DNA of 64,000 bases. Source: Gordonia iterans (lineage in GTDB: Bacteria > Actinomycetota > Actinomycetes > Mycobacteriales > Mycobacteriaceae). A program made the position numbers and the translations under genes. The stretch's first letter is position 1; every line of letters starts with the position of its first letter. The stretch covers positions 310,001 to 374,000 of the forward strand of contig NZ_CP027433.1 in assembly GCF_002993285.1 (NCBI RefSeq), given 5' to 3'. Below are positions 17,055 to 44,122 of the stretch, piece after piece. Under the pieces are notes generated by a model. That model saw only the letters and a program-made list of their open reading frames with translations. It made no database searches and was not told where the DNA came from.

Positions 17055-17070
17055 TGTTCCACGTGAAACA
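17055..17070. promoter_or_regulatory. parS site (one mismatch in dyad)
   Basis: TGTTCCACGTGAAACA is a 16-bp parS sequence with one dyad mismatch. It lies upstream of rsmG, 20 bp from a second parS, in the rsmG-jag spacer. Confidence 0.85.
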
Positions 17071-17090: not shown

Positions 17091-17106
17091 CGTTTCACGT
17101 GGAACC
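17091..17106. promoter_or_regulatory. parS site (one mismatch in dyad)
   Basis: CGTTTCACGTGGAACC is a parS variant in opposite asymmetry to the neighbouring site; the centres are 36 bp apart. Together they form a double site between the rsmG start and the jag terminator. Confidence 0.85.
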
Positions 17107-17172
17107 CAACCGTCCGACGCCGCTCCCGCGCTACGAACTACAGCTTTGTGATTCACGGTCGCGAAAGCAGAA

Positions 17173-22648: not shown

Positions 22649-23187
22649 CCGTCCACGGCTGACTCTCAAGTACTACGGCAGAGTTCTGCGGCGTCGCATC
22701 GGCGGTGCGAAGAATCCGTGCCCTGCCGCCGACGGCGGGGAAAAGGCCAGGTGAACGATCCCCGCGGGCCTGTGGACAAGGTGCGGATAACCGGGGGTCC
22801 GGGTGTGGACGACGCGGGGACAGGTGTGGACGAGACCCAGTGTCCACAGGCCGGCCGAGTTGTCCACCGCTGCAGTCCACCGACGCTCCACAGGGCTCGA
22901 GCACGAGAGACCTGCACAGACACCGGTTCTCCCCAGGATCCACAGGACTTATTACTAAGAAGAATTTCTCTCTAGAAGAAACTCTTTTAAGAGTAAGGCT
23001 GGGGAAACCGCGTCGCCGGCGGCGCGAGCCAGGCATCGGCCTCCGGTCCGGCCCGCATCGAGCCACTGCTTCCACGGAGCCGGTGCGGGCGCTCTAGAGT
23101 GGGACACGGCGACTCTCGCAGAGCCGCCGGACCGGTACGTGGCCACGTACCGGGAGTGTGTACGTTCCAGAAGGGCCAACACCGCAG
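22649..23187. other. oriC: Origin of replication oriC (dnaA-dnaN spacer)
   Basis: 539 bp without a gene. DnaA boxes or near-boxes occur at 22771-22779 (TGTGGACAA, perfect), 22804-22812, 22825-22833 (both TGTGGACGA), 22840-22848 (GTGTCCACA), 22860-22868 (TTGTCCACC), 22884-22892 and 22936-22944. Immediately after them, 22947-22997 is the only strongly A/T-rich stretch in the neighbourhood (ACTTATTACTAAGAAG ...) and includes the dyad ACTCTTTTAAGAGT (22981-22994). It is the likely unwinding element. Position between dnaA and dnaN is where mycobacterial oriC lies. Confidence 0.9.
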
Positions 23188-41169: not shown

Positions 41170-42051
41170 TTGACGCCCACCTGTCACCGGCATCCCGACC
41201 GCCCCACCGCGCTCTCGTGCACGCGGTGCGGGCGGTCGGCCTGTCCCGACTGCCTGCGGCCGGCGCCGGTCGGCCAGCACTGCTCGGACTGCGTGGCCCG
41301 GGAACAGGCCGCGGCCCGCGTCGACCCGGCGGCCGCCGCCCAGGGCTCACACACGACCCCGTACGTGACGTACACGCTCATCGGGGCCAACCTGCTGTTG
41401 TTTCTGGCCTGCATCGTGCAGGCCGGCACCGGCGCGCTGCGGGACCGTGCCGACCTGTGGACGTCGTCGATCATGCGGGACGGCGTGCTCATCACGGGAT
41501 ACGACGACGTCTTTCTCGGCGAGTACTGGCGACTGCTGAGCTCGGGGTTCCTGCACTGGTCGATCGTGCACATCGCGGTGAACATGATCTCGCTGTACAT
41601 CATCGGCCGGGATCTGGAGCAGCACTTCGGGCCCGCCCGCTACGGCGTCGTCTATCTGACGAGCCTCCTCGGCGGCAGCGCCGCAGTGGTGATCCTGGAA
41701 CGGGAGAACGCTCTGACCGCCGGCGCATCCGGCGCGATCTACGGTCTGCTCGGTGCGATTCTGGTGGTGGTGTTGCGCCTCAAGCTGCCTGCGACGTCGG
41801 TGCTGACGATCATCGCGCTCAACATCGTGGTGTCGTTCACGATCCCCGGGATCTCCCTGTGGGCACACCTGGGCGGTCTGGTGTTCGGGGCCCTCGGCGC
41901 CCTCGCCGTGCTGTGGCTCCCGGCGGTCGCCCTCGCCCCGGAGGACCGGACGCAGACGAAGGTGAGCGTCGTCGGATGGACCGCCCTGGCGGCGTTGCTG
42001 GTGGCGGCGATCGCCCTCGGCGTCGGCTACAGCATGGCGCTGAGCCCCTGA
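41170..42051 (+). CDS. Rhomboid family intramembrane serine protease with N-terminal zinc-finger-like head
   Basis: 293 residues from a TTG start placed directly after ppiA. Residues about 5-45 hold eight Cys or His residues (CHRHPDRPT, CTRCGRSACPDC, CSDC) forming a B-box-like zinc site. Six or seven membrane helices follow. The catalytic serine is in TAGASGAIYGLLGA, the catalytic His in LWAHLGGLVFG, and the HxxxN helix reads HIAVNMISLY. Rhomboids cut membrane proteins inside the bilayer. Rhomboid genes next to ppiA are common in actinobacteria. Substrate unknown. Confidence 0.92.
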   Translation: MTPTCHRHPDRPTALSCTRCGRSACPDCLRPAPVGQHCSDCVAREQAAARVDPAAAAQGSHTTPYVTYTLIGANLLLFLACIVQAGTGALRDRADLWTSSIMRDGVLITGYDDVFLGEYWRLLSSGFLHWSIVHIAVNMISLYIIGRDLEQHFGPARYGVVYLTSLLGGSAAVVILERENALTAGASGAIYGLLGAILVVVLRLKLPATSVLTIIALNIVVSFTIPGISLWAHLGGLVFGALGALAVLWLPAVALAPEDRTQTKVSVVGWTALAALLVAAIALGVGYSMALSP

Positions 42052-42164
42052 ACGCCCGTGACACGGGTCGGGTTCACGTCCTGCTGCCGGATTGAGTTCC
42101 GGCTGCCGCATCAATCCGGCGGCACGACGTGGATCCGGCAGCCGGAGTCGACCCGGCCAGGCGA

Positions 42165-42638
42165 TCAGTCCGCGGACGCGGGCTTTCCGCCGGTCCGGTC
42201 GTGCACGGAGAAGCCGGCGTCGGCCAGACGCCCGGCCACGACGGCGGGGTTCGCGCCGAGGTCCCACTGCCCGAAGACCAGCAGTCGTCCCGGGCGCTCG
42301 GAGTCGTCGGACTCCTCGATCAGGAGCTGTCGTGAACGGAACGCCAGTCGCCGCGTGCCCAGCAACTCGATGCTCTCGATGTCGGCGGCCGTCAGGTCAT
42401 ACCGGCCGCGCAGCGTGCCGACGGTGAGGACCGGTCCGTCCGACAGCGCCAGCCGCGGACGGCGCATCAGTGCGGCCAGCCCGGTGAGGAAGGTGGCCAG
42501 CGCCGCCACGCCCAGCAGCACCATCGCCGGCGGTTCGGTGTACGACGCTGCCGACGCCACGGCCAGCGCTATCCCCAGGGCGAGCAGAGCGATTCCCGCA
42601 GGTACCGGCGTCGCCCACTGTTGCGTCCCGCGATTCAC
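42165..42638 (-). CDS. PH-domain membrane protein, Rv0010c-like
   Basis: 157 residues from the GTG at 42638; the frame is open to 42716 but that part is a DNA repeat. Two membrane helices (about 10-30 and 38-58) are followed by a bacterial PH-like domain: PRLALSDGPVLTVGTLRGRYDL ... RLLVFGQWDLGANPAVVAGRLADAGF, matching the end of Rv0010c. The function is unknown. The gene is downstream of crgA on the same strand, and the gap between them is filled by DnaA-box-like motifs (42643-42740). No good Shine-Dalgarno is seen. Confidence 0.8.
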   Translation of the reverse strand: MNRGTQQWATPVPAGIALLALGIALAVASAASYTEPPAMVLLGVAALATFLTGLAALMRRPRLALSDGPVLTVGTLRGRYDLTAADIESIELLGTRRLAFRSRQLLIEESDDSERPGRLLVFGQWDLGANPAVVAGRLADAGFSVHDRTGGKPASAD

Positions 42639-42642
42639 AGAG

Positions 42643-42740
42643 TTATCCACAGGATTTACCCACACTGGGGACGAGTTACACACATGTGATTTCCACAGTG
42701 TGGATGAATTACACACATGTCATTCGCGTCCTGTGGACGA
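42643..42740. promoter_or_regulatory. Cluster of five DnaA-box-like sites between crgA and the PH-domain gene
   Basis: TTATCCACA (42643-42651, perfect E. coli-type box), TTACCCACA (42656-42664), ATTTCCACA (42689-42697), TGTGGATGA (42699-42707) and TGTGGACGA (42732-42740) lie within 98 bp. The middle two face each other as TCCACA-G-TGTGGA. Interleaved is a 12-bp direct repeat, TTACACACATGT, at 42676-42687 and 42709-42720, offset by 33 bp (three helical turns). No gene fits here. Confidence 0.7.
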
Positions 42741-42753
42741 CCGTCGACGCCGG

Positions 42754-43050
42754 TCAGCGCCAGCCCATCGTCATCAGCAGGCCGACCACCCCGAGACCGA
42801 AACCGATCAGCAGGTTCCACGAGCCGAGCTGATTCATCCAGTGCAGGGGCTTGCCCTCCGCGCCGAATCCGGAGGTGCTGTTGGACGCACCGAGGTAGTA
42901 GACGAGGAGCCACGCGAGCCCCACGAGCATGAACCCGAACATGAAGGTCTGGTACAGGACGCCCGAGGGGCCCGCCTTCACCTTCACCGGCGTGCGGCTC
43001 GCCGTGTTGATCGTGTAGTCGGTCTTCTTCCGCACCTTTGACTTAGGCAT
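42754..43050 (-). CDS. crgA: Cell division protein CrgA
   Basis: 98 residues from the ATG at 43050 (MPKSKVRKK). It has two membrane helices (YQTFMFGFMLVGLAWLLVYYLG and LLIGFGLGVVGLLMTMGW) and a conserved outside loop containing PLHWMNQLGSWN. In mycobacteria CrgA coordinates divisome proteins including FtsZ, FtsQ and PbpA-type enzymes. It is divergent from trpG with a 54-bp gap, in the conserved ppiA-crgA-trpG-pknB context. Confidence 0.95.
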   Translation of the reverse strand: MPKSKVRKKTDYTINTASRTPVKVKAGPSGVLYQTFMFGFMLVGLAWLLVYYLGASNSTSGFGAEGKPLHWMNQLGSWNLLIGFGLGVVGLLMTMGWR

Positions 43051-43104
43051 ACTTCTACGGTAACCCAGGGGCGGCGTCCGGCGGGAAACCGCTAACCTGG
43101 CTCC

Positions 43105-43746
<642 letters not shown>

Positions 43747-43861
43747 GCGGCCGCGGTCCGAGCGCGGGGTCTCGAGGGTCTCGATACGTCTCGCCTAGCG
43801 GCTCGACTACTCGACCACCAACTTGATCGTCGCGTGCTCCGCCACGCATGCTCAGGACGAC

Positions 43862-44114
43862 GCTCGACTACTCGACCACCAACTTGGTTGCGGCTCGACT
43901 ACTCGACCACCAACTTGGTTGCGGCTCGACTACTCGACCACCAACTTGATTGCGGCTCGACTACTCGACCACCAACTTGGTTGCCGCTCGACTACTCGAC
44001 CACCAACTTGGTTGCCGCTCGACTACTCGACCACCAACTTGGTTGGCGCTCGCCCACCAACTTGGTTGCCGCTCGACCACCAAGTCGACCGCCGCTCGAC
44101 CACCAAGTTCGACC
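43862..44114. repeat. 31-bp tandem repeat array between trpG and pknB
   Basis: Six 31-bp units start at 43862, 43893, 43924, 43955, 43986 and 44017. Each begins GCTCGACTACTCGACCACC and continues with AACTTGGTTGCG; the first two are identical and others differ by one or two bases. Three shortened 23- or 21-bp units follow (44048, 44071, 44094), lacking the 8-bp ACTACTCG block or nearly so. An isolated copy is at 43801. Each unit holds the dyad ACCAA-C-TTGGT. The array fills the whole gap between two convergent genes (376 bp). Confidence 0.92.
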
Positions 44115-44122
44115 GACGCCGG

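Follow-up and report, generated by a model that had tools for sequence, protein, structure and literature searches.

A crgA-linked element of DnaA boxes and a palindrome recurs across actinobacteria and is a candidate DnaA-regulating site

Here we describe a DNA element that lies directly 3' of the division gene crgA in a 64,000-nt window (bases 310001-374000) of a 4.0-Mb single-contig Gordonia genome. The element joins DnaA boxes to a palindromic operator in fixed order and at nearly fixed spacing, and in relatives it usually follows the 3' end of this gene. A first-pass annotation of the window had noticed a dense cluster of boxes at this place; the observation is confirmed and its relevance reaches beyond the window. 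Judged from its distribution, the crgA-linked element is best read as an old actinobacterial site. It probably tunes DnaA; that it is a non-coding site near oriC through which actinobacteria regulate DnaA seems to us about as likely as not. On this reading it would work like a DnaA-reactivating sequence (DARS) or a datA site, without being classed as a member of either. To our knowledge, little is known of how DnaA activity is reset outside proteobacteria. A site of ~50 bp at one place across many actinobacterial families provides a defined target for this question and supplies relatives for a DnaA-bound mycobacterial spot regarded as having 'no obvious correspondence' elsewhere, while its second operator offers a testable link from replication initiation to division.

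Results

Anatomy of the element beside crgA

On the plus strand, the core of ~50 bp consists of box 1 (forward), 4 bp, box 2 (forward), 1 bp, box 3 (reverse) and an inverted repeat (Table 1). In 46 aligned copies from the family the consensus is TTATCCACAGG-n-GTTATCCACA-n-TGGGGATGAATnACA-N4-TGTAATT, the ACA and TG of the repeat being invariant, and the DnaA boxes are conserved as strongly as the palindrome. Box 2 maintains its identity while its letters vary (TTACTCACA, TTACCCACA, TTGTCCACA, TTATCCACA and others), and box 3 occurs most commonly as TCATCCCCA (28/46), with TCATCCACA and TTATCCCCA in five copies each. In the window, the unit comprising box 2, box 3 and the inverted repeat is duplicated at exactly 33 bp. 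This recurrence accounts for two features pointed out earlier, which are both present: a 12-bp direct repeat, TTACACACATGT, at 42676-42687 and 42709-42720 (offset 33 bp), and a pair of facing boxes at 42689-42707 with the single base 42698 between them. Just 12 of 67 genus copies have another strict palindrome at this exact distance, and the 33-bp repeat is therefore a local duplication. All five box-like sites of the first-pass annotation were recovered in place, and the weak box 3 was added to them.

Table 1. Features of the element, its neighbours and a further palindrome in the window
Feature	Position	Strand	Remarks
DnaA box 1, TTATCCACA	42643..42651	+	TTATCCACA in 58/67 genus copies, TTGTCCACA in 8/67, TCGTCCACA in 1/67
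DnaA box 2, TTACCCACA	42656..42664	+	pitch to box 1 13 bp; TTATCCACA in 23/46 copies of the family alignment
DnaA box 3, TCGTCCCCA	42666..42674	-	weak, 2 mismatches in the window; faces box 2 across a 1-base gap
Inverted repeat P1, AGTTACACACATGTGATT	42674..42691	.	departs from AATnACA-N4-TGTnATT at 1 position; operator-like and distinct from DnaA boxes
Box 2' (33-bp repeat), ATTTCCACA	42689..42697	+	weak
Box 3' (33-bp repeat), TCATCCACA	42699..42707	-	faces box 2' across base 42698
Inverted repeat P2, AATTACACACATGTCATT	42707..42724	.	exact match to AATnACA-N4-TGTnATT; 33 bp past P1
Outer box, TCGTCCACA	42732..42740	-	not part of the conserved core
crgA (98 aa)	42754..43050	-	element directly 3' in this genome and in the majority of relatives examined
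PH-domain-type gene (Rv0010c-like by position)	42165..42650	-	in-frame GTG at 42650, within box 1
Further inverted repeat	17136..17153	.	1 mismatch; between R3H/KhpB gene and gidB-parA; no DnaA element

Box density was said to rival that of oriC and to exceed that of the dnaA promoter. Indeed, when boxes were scored per 90-bp window, the element reached 13, as did oriC, compared with 9 for the dnaA promoter; the next-best place in the window scored 3 and the maximum over 100 dinucleotide shuffles was 6. If the count is restricted to boxes with one mismatch or none, oriC (6) ranks above the element (4) and the element above the dnaA promoter (3). Sites matching TTATCCACA with at most one mismatch number 7 in the window versus 1.96 expected, a count that none of 100 dinucleotide shuffles reached. 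The element (42643-42740) is not part of oriC: it lies outside the dnaA-dnaN interval (~22649-23187), at a distance of ~19.5 kb, in line with the earlier estimate.

The repeated sequence TTACACACATGT was rejected as a DnaA box, as the second letter of its TnACA motif is free (T 18, G 11, C 9, A 8; n=46). This freedom indicates that the constraint on this part is the inverted repeat. Pairing in the inverted sense is found in 79.5% of cells versus 21-40% when the halves are slid against each other; 58 of 500 shuffles gave a value as high, an unremarkable result because the symmetry sits in constant columns. Between the free position and its mirror there is no covariation (27/46 unpaired); the covariation score was reached by 60 of 500 shuffles.

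Conservation within the genus and the family

Conservation of the boxes in close relatives had been named as a test of the cluster, and the claim survives it. The element is located beside crgA in all 59 genus genomes, in 58 of them by loci holding crgA and in genome G032 by a family profile. A 139-base DNA query matched all 59 genomes, G032 only at E = 0.18; here, the family profile gave E = 1e-9, ~40 bases from crgA. The 12-mers of the element recur in a mean of 12.6 of the 57 other genus loci, as compared to 2.6 for 12-mers elsewhere in 41201-43800. Single words of the element reach up to 54 loci, yet words from trpG-type coding stretches reach 49, so that single words of the element are not exceptional in this respect.

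At least nine of the 59 genomes hold a second copy of the core. Four of these copies (L049, L050, L053, L061) sit where a PH and a rhomboid gene converge with their 3' ends, and the other five (L031, L037, L038, L045, L057) follow the 3' end of a methyltransferase gene. Of the latter, L031, L038 and L045 lie between converging genes and L057 precedes a gene of the same direction, so that seven of the nine extra copies are located between converging genes.

Within the family, the sequence-only profile R1 matched 287 of 301 genomes at E<=0.01, covering 30 of 31 genera; among the weak matches, some may be partial. The 14 genomes missed were rescanned with profile R2 at E<=5. Two of them, G065 and G088, are considered in the Discussion; the other 12 gave weak or no matches, seven of them belonging to genus g3, which is Corynebacterium-like in size, and three being less than 90% complete. 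Among 44 family loci taken, crgA was found in 41 and the PH gene in 39. The three loci lacking crgA (L100, L102, L130) are taken as additional copies: G322 and G085 also carry a crgA-linked copy, and G272 has another match. L100 and L102 adjoin the 3' side of what we take to be a hydrolase-like gene. Locus L064 carries one exact box only. Weak profile matches at loci without crgA (L169-L174, E 0.0055-0.021) were not counted as elements. Separately, two or three elements were seen within ~0.9 kb in single genomes at L114, L130 and L134.

Spread beyond the family

With profile R2, matches were obtained in 128 of 200 genomes of the order at E<=0.01 (30 of its own family; the weaker matches are often partial), 85 of 197 genomes of the class at E<=1e-4 (15 of its own family) and 10 of 119 genomes of the phylum at E<=1e-5, namely five of its own family, two of the same class and three from outside the class. 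crgA was present at all seven order loci examined and at four of six class loci, a rhomboid gene preceding the element at the remaining two. For 20 further loci picked from the matches listed, a profile detected crgA in 18, two of these outside the class; it did not detect crgA at L333 and at L332, the third locus from outside the class. An exact-pattern scan with named records yielded at least 119 loci, with a crgA match in 111 among the loci listed; names among the matches listed include Mycobacterium, Rhodococcus, Gordonia, Knoellia and a metagenome-assembled genome of Bifidobacterium breve. In four genomes (7.8 to 9.2 Mb; L350-L353) of family f33, which is Streptomyces-like in size, a DnaA-box cluster also lies 3' of crgA, with a different box arrangement and no strict palindrome.

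Independence from the PH-type gene

The first-pass annotation placed the element between crgA and a PH-domain gene and considered DnaA control of the latter. crgA does adjoin the element. For the PH label, Pfam gave no match with this gene's protein, but a weak match to this stretch in a Tsukamurella plasmid record coincides with an annotated PH domain-containing protein. Where class loci hold crgA (four cases), this gene and a rhomboid gene always converge on the element, and no match to the PH gene better than E = 0.43 was obtained. At family locus L112, the element is likewise retained and the PH gene was not detected. Extra copies, too, are located 3' of genes. As the element is kept without a PH gene between convergent genes and has additional copies in 3' regions, it is not primarily a promoter of the PH gene, and the proposal of such control as its primary role is not borne out.

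The inverted repeat as a candidate operator

In 19 genomes of the family, sites matching AATnACA-N4-TGTnATT with at most one mismatch number 2-15 per genome, each site being tallied on both strands, versus 0-1 for a reversed-pattern control. The places looked at include, in several genera, the stretch before a gene of the WhiB family that diverges from cofD/fbiA, stretches before NlpC/P60 (ripA-type) genes, the gap from R3H/KhpB to gidB-parA and the stretch before a glpR-like gene. Pfam backs Whib, CofD, R3H, ParA and NLPC_P60 in one example each and gave no match for the glpR-like protein; the labels glpR-like, gidB and def are our assumptions. Other sites have no such neighbours, e.g. L309, L312 and L147/L314. 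In a Corynebacterium-like genome, an exact site lies between dnaA- and dnaN-like frames and a near-match in the stretch before dnaA. By its neighbourhoods, the inverted repeat looks like the operator of a regulator that controls division and the envelope.

MtrA is the lead candidate for the protein binding it, which falls short of an identification. In papers on MtrA (PMC11215152, PMC6265350, PMC3353115, PMC5650626, PMC13189361), its motif likewise has two 7-bp halves, a 4-bp spacer and a free letter in mid-half, and its targets include division and replication genes; ripA, dnaA and oriC are named as targets (PMC11215152). However, the MtrA halves are direct repeats (PMC11215152), whereas those of the element are inverted. 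The HigA2 motif ATCAC-N6-GTGAT (PMC11205783) fits the inverted-repeat form with n = C, although HigA2 is unlikely as a general binder.

Together, the copy at 17136-17153 of the window and those in G000 at 1773718, 2332402, 2395122, 3180040 and 3930319 form a small target set, in which gidB-parA, a pair of ripA-type genes, whiB/fbiA, a def-like gene and others follow the repeat. Two parS-like sequences, TGTTCCACGTGAAACA and GTTTCACGTGGAAC (17055-17070 and 17092-17105), lie next to the gidB-parA palindrome.

Correspondence to a DnaA-bound mycobacterial site

DnaA binding at this locus has been published for mycobacteria, and it is for these bacteria that the binding proposed in the first-pass annotation is supported. 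According to Hicks et al. 2020 (PMC7738170), on which the statements in this paragraph rest, Mycobacterium tuberculosis DnaA enriches five regions including Rv0010c-Rv0011c in in vitro DNA affinity purification sequencing (IDAP-seq), with support from electrophoretic mobility shift assays, and chromatin immunoprecipitation sequencing (ChIP-seq) in M. smegmatis recovers homologues of all five. Clinical variants show convergence at a small palindrome, which lies 65 bp upstream of Rv0010c and is described as two DnaA-box-like sequences. When three site variants were rebuilt in M. tuberculosis, cells became longer, as with dnaA variants. The authors left titration versus reactivation open and saw 'no obvious correspondence' of the site in other species.

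The Gordonia element matches this site in position and make-up: a DnaA-box-like cluster with a small palindrome between crgA and an Rv0010c homologue. Judged by distance, the published palindrome most likely equals the inverted repeat described here; possibly, it corresponds to the facing boxes 2 and 3 instead. The published work deals with one pathogen and one relative, and the sections available describe no cross-family core, PH-free placement, extra copies or separate operator (PMC7738170). DnaA binding at the locus in mycobacteria is thus already known, and spread, core grammar, independence from the PH gene and additional copies are added here. A description of the composite element was not found in the open-licence literature searched.

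Discussion

The earlier suggestion of a titration or reactivation site names the right class of explanation. Within this class, the comparison with known sites leads us to favour, weakly, a DARS-like over a datA-like action, in which the element would sustain active DnaA. DARS (PMC5742627, PMC4585315) and the element both have a three-box core in which one box is opposed to two. DARS1 and DARS2 have the same spacing, box I opposes boxes II and III, and a head-to-head contact is prominent (PMC5742627). A scan of E. coli MG1655, in regions that we presume to be DARS1 and DARS2, gave boxes at + 0, - +14 and - +26 for both; the element, read on the minus strand, gives + 0, - +10 and - +23. The orientation thus agrees and the spacing does not. 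Moreover, the element has a palindrome where DARS has sites for IHF and Fis, and it is close to oriC. datA shares with the element that it is a non-coding DnaA-box cluster outside oriC, but its essential boxes have one direction and IHF is needed (PMC5742627), whereas the boxes of the element oppose each other. That mycobacterial site variants lengthen cells like dnaA variants agrees in sign with a DARS-like action.

We picture that DnaA would assemble at the element as a head-to-head complex outside the origin, and that a second, dimeric DNA-binding protein on the conserved palindrome flanking the boxes, a candidate second-protein site, may help or gate this assembly. As an outcome, active DnaA would be sustained rather than removed, and loss of the element would be expected to resemble weakened DnaA. 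A still wider scheme, which we consider rather unlikely, would make the crgA-linked element an ancestral DnaA-reactivating site of Actinomycetota, i.e. a three-box head-to-head platform gated by an MtrA-type dimer that couples initiator activity to a division programme at WhiB, ripA-type, glpR-like and gidB-parA promoters.

Several observations weigh against a DARS-like, DnaA-regulating role. The gap between the facing boxes is 1 bp as compared to 5 in E. coli DARS, the tandem pitch is 13 rather than 12, and most copies have a weak box 3. Any three-box arrangement falls into one of four orientation classes, and because one in four matches by chance, the orientation lends only modest support. 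G065 carries the three-box form ~0.7 kb from crgA, past a trpG-like gene. In G088, which stands for one genus of the family, crgA is retained and the 3.3-kb stretch holds no box within one mismatch, with the PH gene seemingly beside crgA at its locus L324 as judged by eye; the element can thus be lost naturally. Deletion of a DnaA-box cluster, such as D78, near oriC of Streptomyces is said to raise initiation, a report that our literature search did not find and that would point to titration if the cluster is the same. Finally, M. tuberculosis dnaA mutants were reported to initiate at an unchanged rate, which the authors state in their discussion for both kinds of mutant (PMC7738170); this argues against a simple effect.

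Alternatively, the element could be a datA-like titration or inactivation site that binds or inactivates DnaA after initiation, is duplicated early owing to its position near oriC and delays re-initiation. We hold this possible but doubtful. The high box density near oriC, the increased box number through extra copies in some genomes and the crgA-linked cluster of other geometry in f33 are all compatible with it. However, a pure sink needs neither a fixed geometry nor a facing box nor a conserved palindrome, the boxes do not share one direction as the essential ones of datA do (PMC5742627), and the mycobacterial site variants act like dnaA variants (PMC7738170). Since the box score equals that of oriC, a secondary origin or orisome remnant was also considered; with a core of merely ~50 bp and with oriC listed separately among the five DnaA-bound mycobacterial regions (PMC7738170), it is scarcely credible.

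The two remaining explanations shift the emphasis to transcription or to the palindrome. DnaA might act as a switch of the PH-domain gene or of a crgA read-through transcript, for which speaks that the element directly precedes the start of the PH gene in the genus and that HigA2 binding is reported at the homologous intergenic region, Rv0010c being up in a higA2 mutant (PMC11205783). The persistence of the element at L112 and between converging genes, the copies in other 3' regions and the unchanged expression of both neighbours, Rv0010c and Rv0011c, in M. tuberculosis dnaA mutants (PMC7738170) make this very unlikely. Improbable, too, is a site run mainly by a palindrome-binding protein, MtrA or another dimeric regulator, with DnaA as co-regulator or displaced, which would link division and envelope control to replication or organise the ori region. 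The palindrome does own a separate set of sites, including those at dnaA-dnaN and before dnaA in the Corynebacterium-like genome, and its 7-4-7 layout is that of the MtrA motif, with ripA, dnaA and oriC as MtrA targets (PMC11215152). On the other hand, MtrA motifs are direct repeats, whiB2, Rv0010c, Rv0011c and Rv0996 are absent from the main text of PMC11215152, and the DnaA boxes are conserved no less than the palindrome. We retain DnaA regulation of a DARS-like kind as the favoured, albeit weakly favoured, reading.

Coding potential, RNA structure and neighbouring sequences

The listed open reading frame of the putative PH-type gene starts at 42716, inside the element. A coding explanation of the element was rejected, as each of the minus-strand frames is interrupted in most genus copies (uninterrupted in 3, 3 and 13 of 67), and GTG at 42650 is for the same reason the likelier start of this gene. 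Two plus-strand frames are open in 55/67 and 51/67 copies, which 28 codons with few stops permit. An RNA element was likewise dismissed: no consensus pair was found, and Rfam was without match in 41500-43500. Phage or plasmid origin was not supported either, phages giving no match and plasmids a single weak one in a Tsukamurella record (47% of the query, E = 7e-3), beneath which a PH domain-containing protein is annotated. Between trpG/pabA-type and kinase genes, tandem repeats at 43861-44119 consist of 6.2 copies of a 31-bp unit followed by a 23-bp unit.
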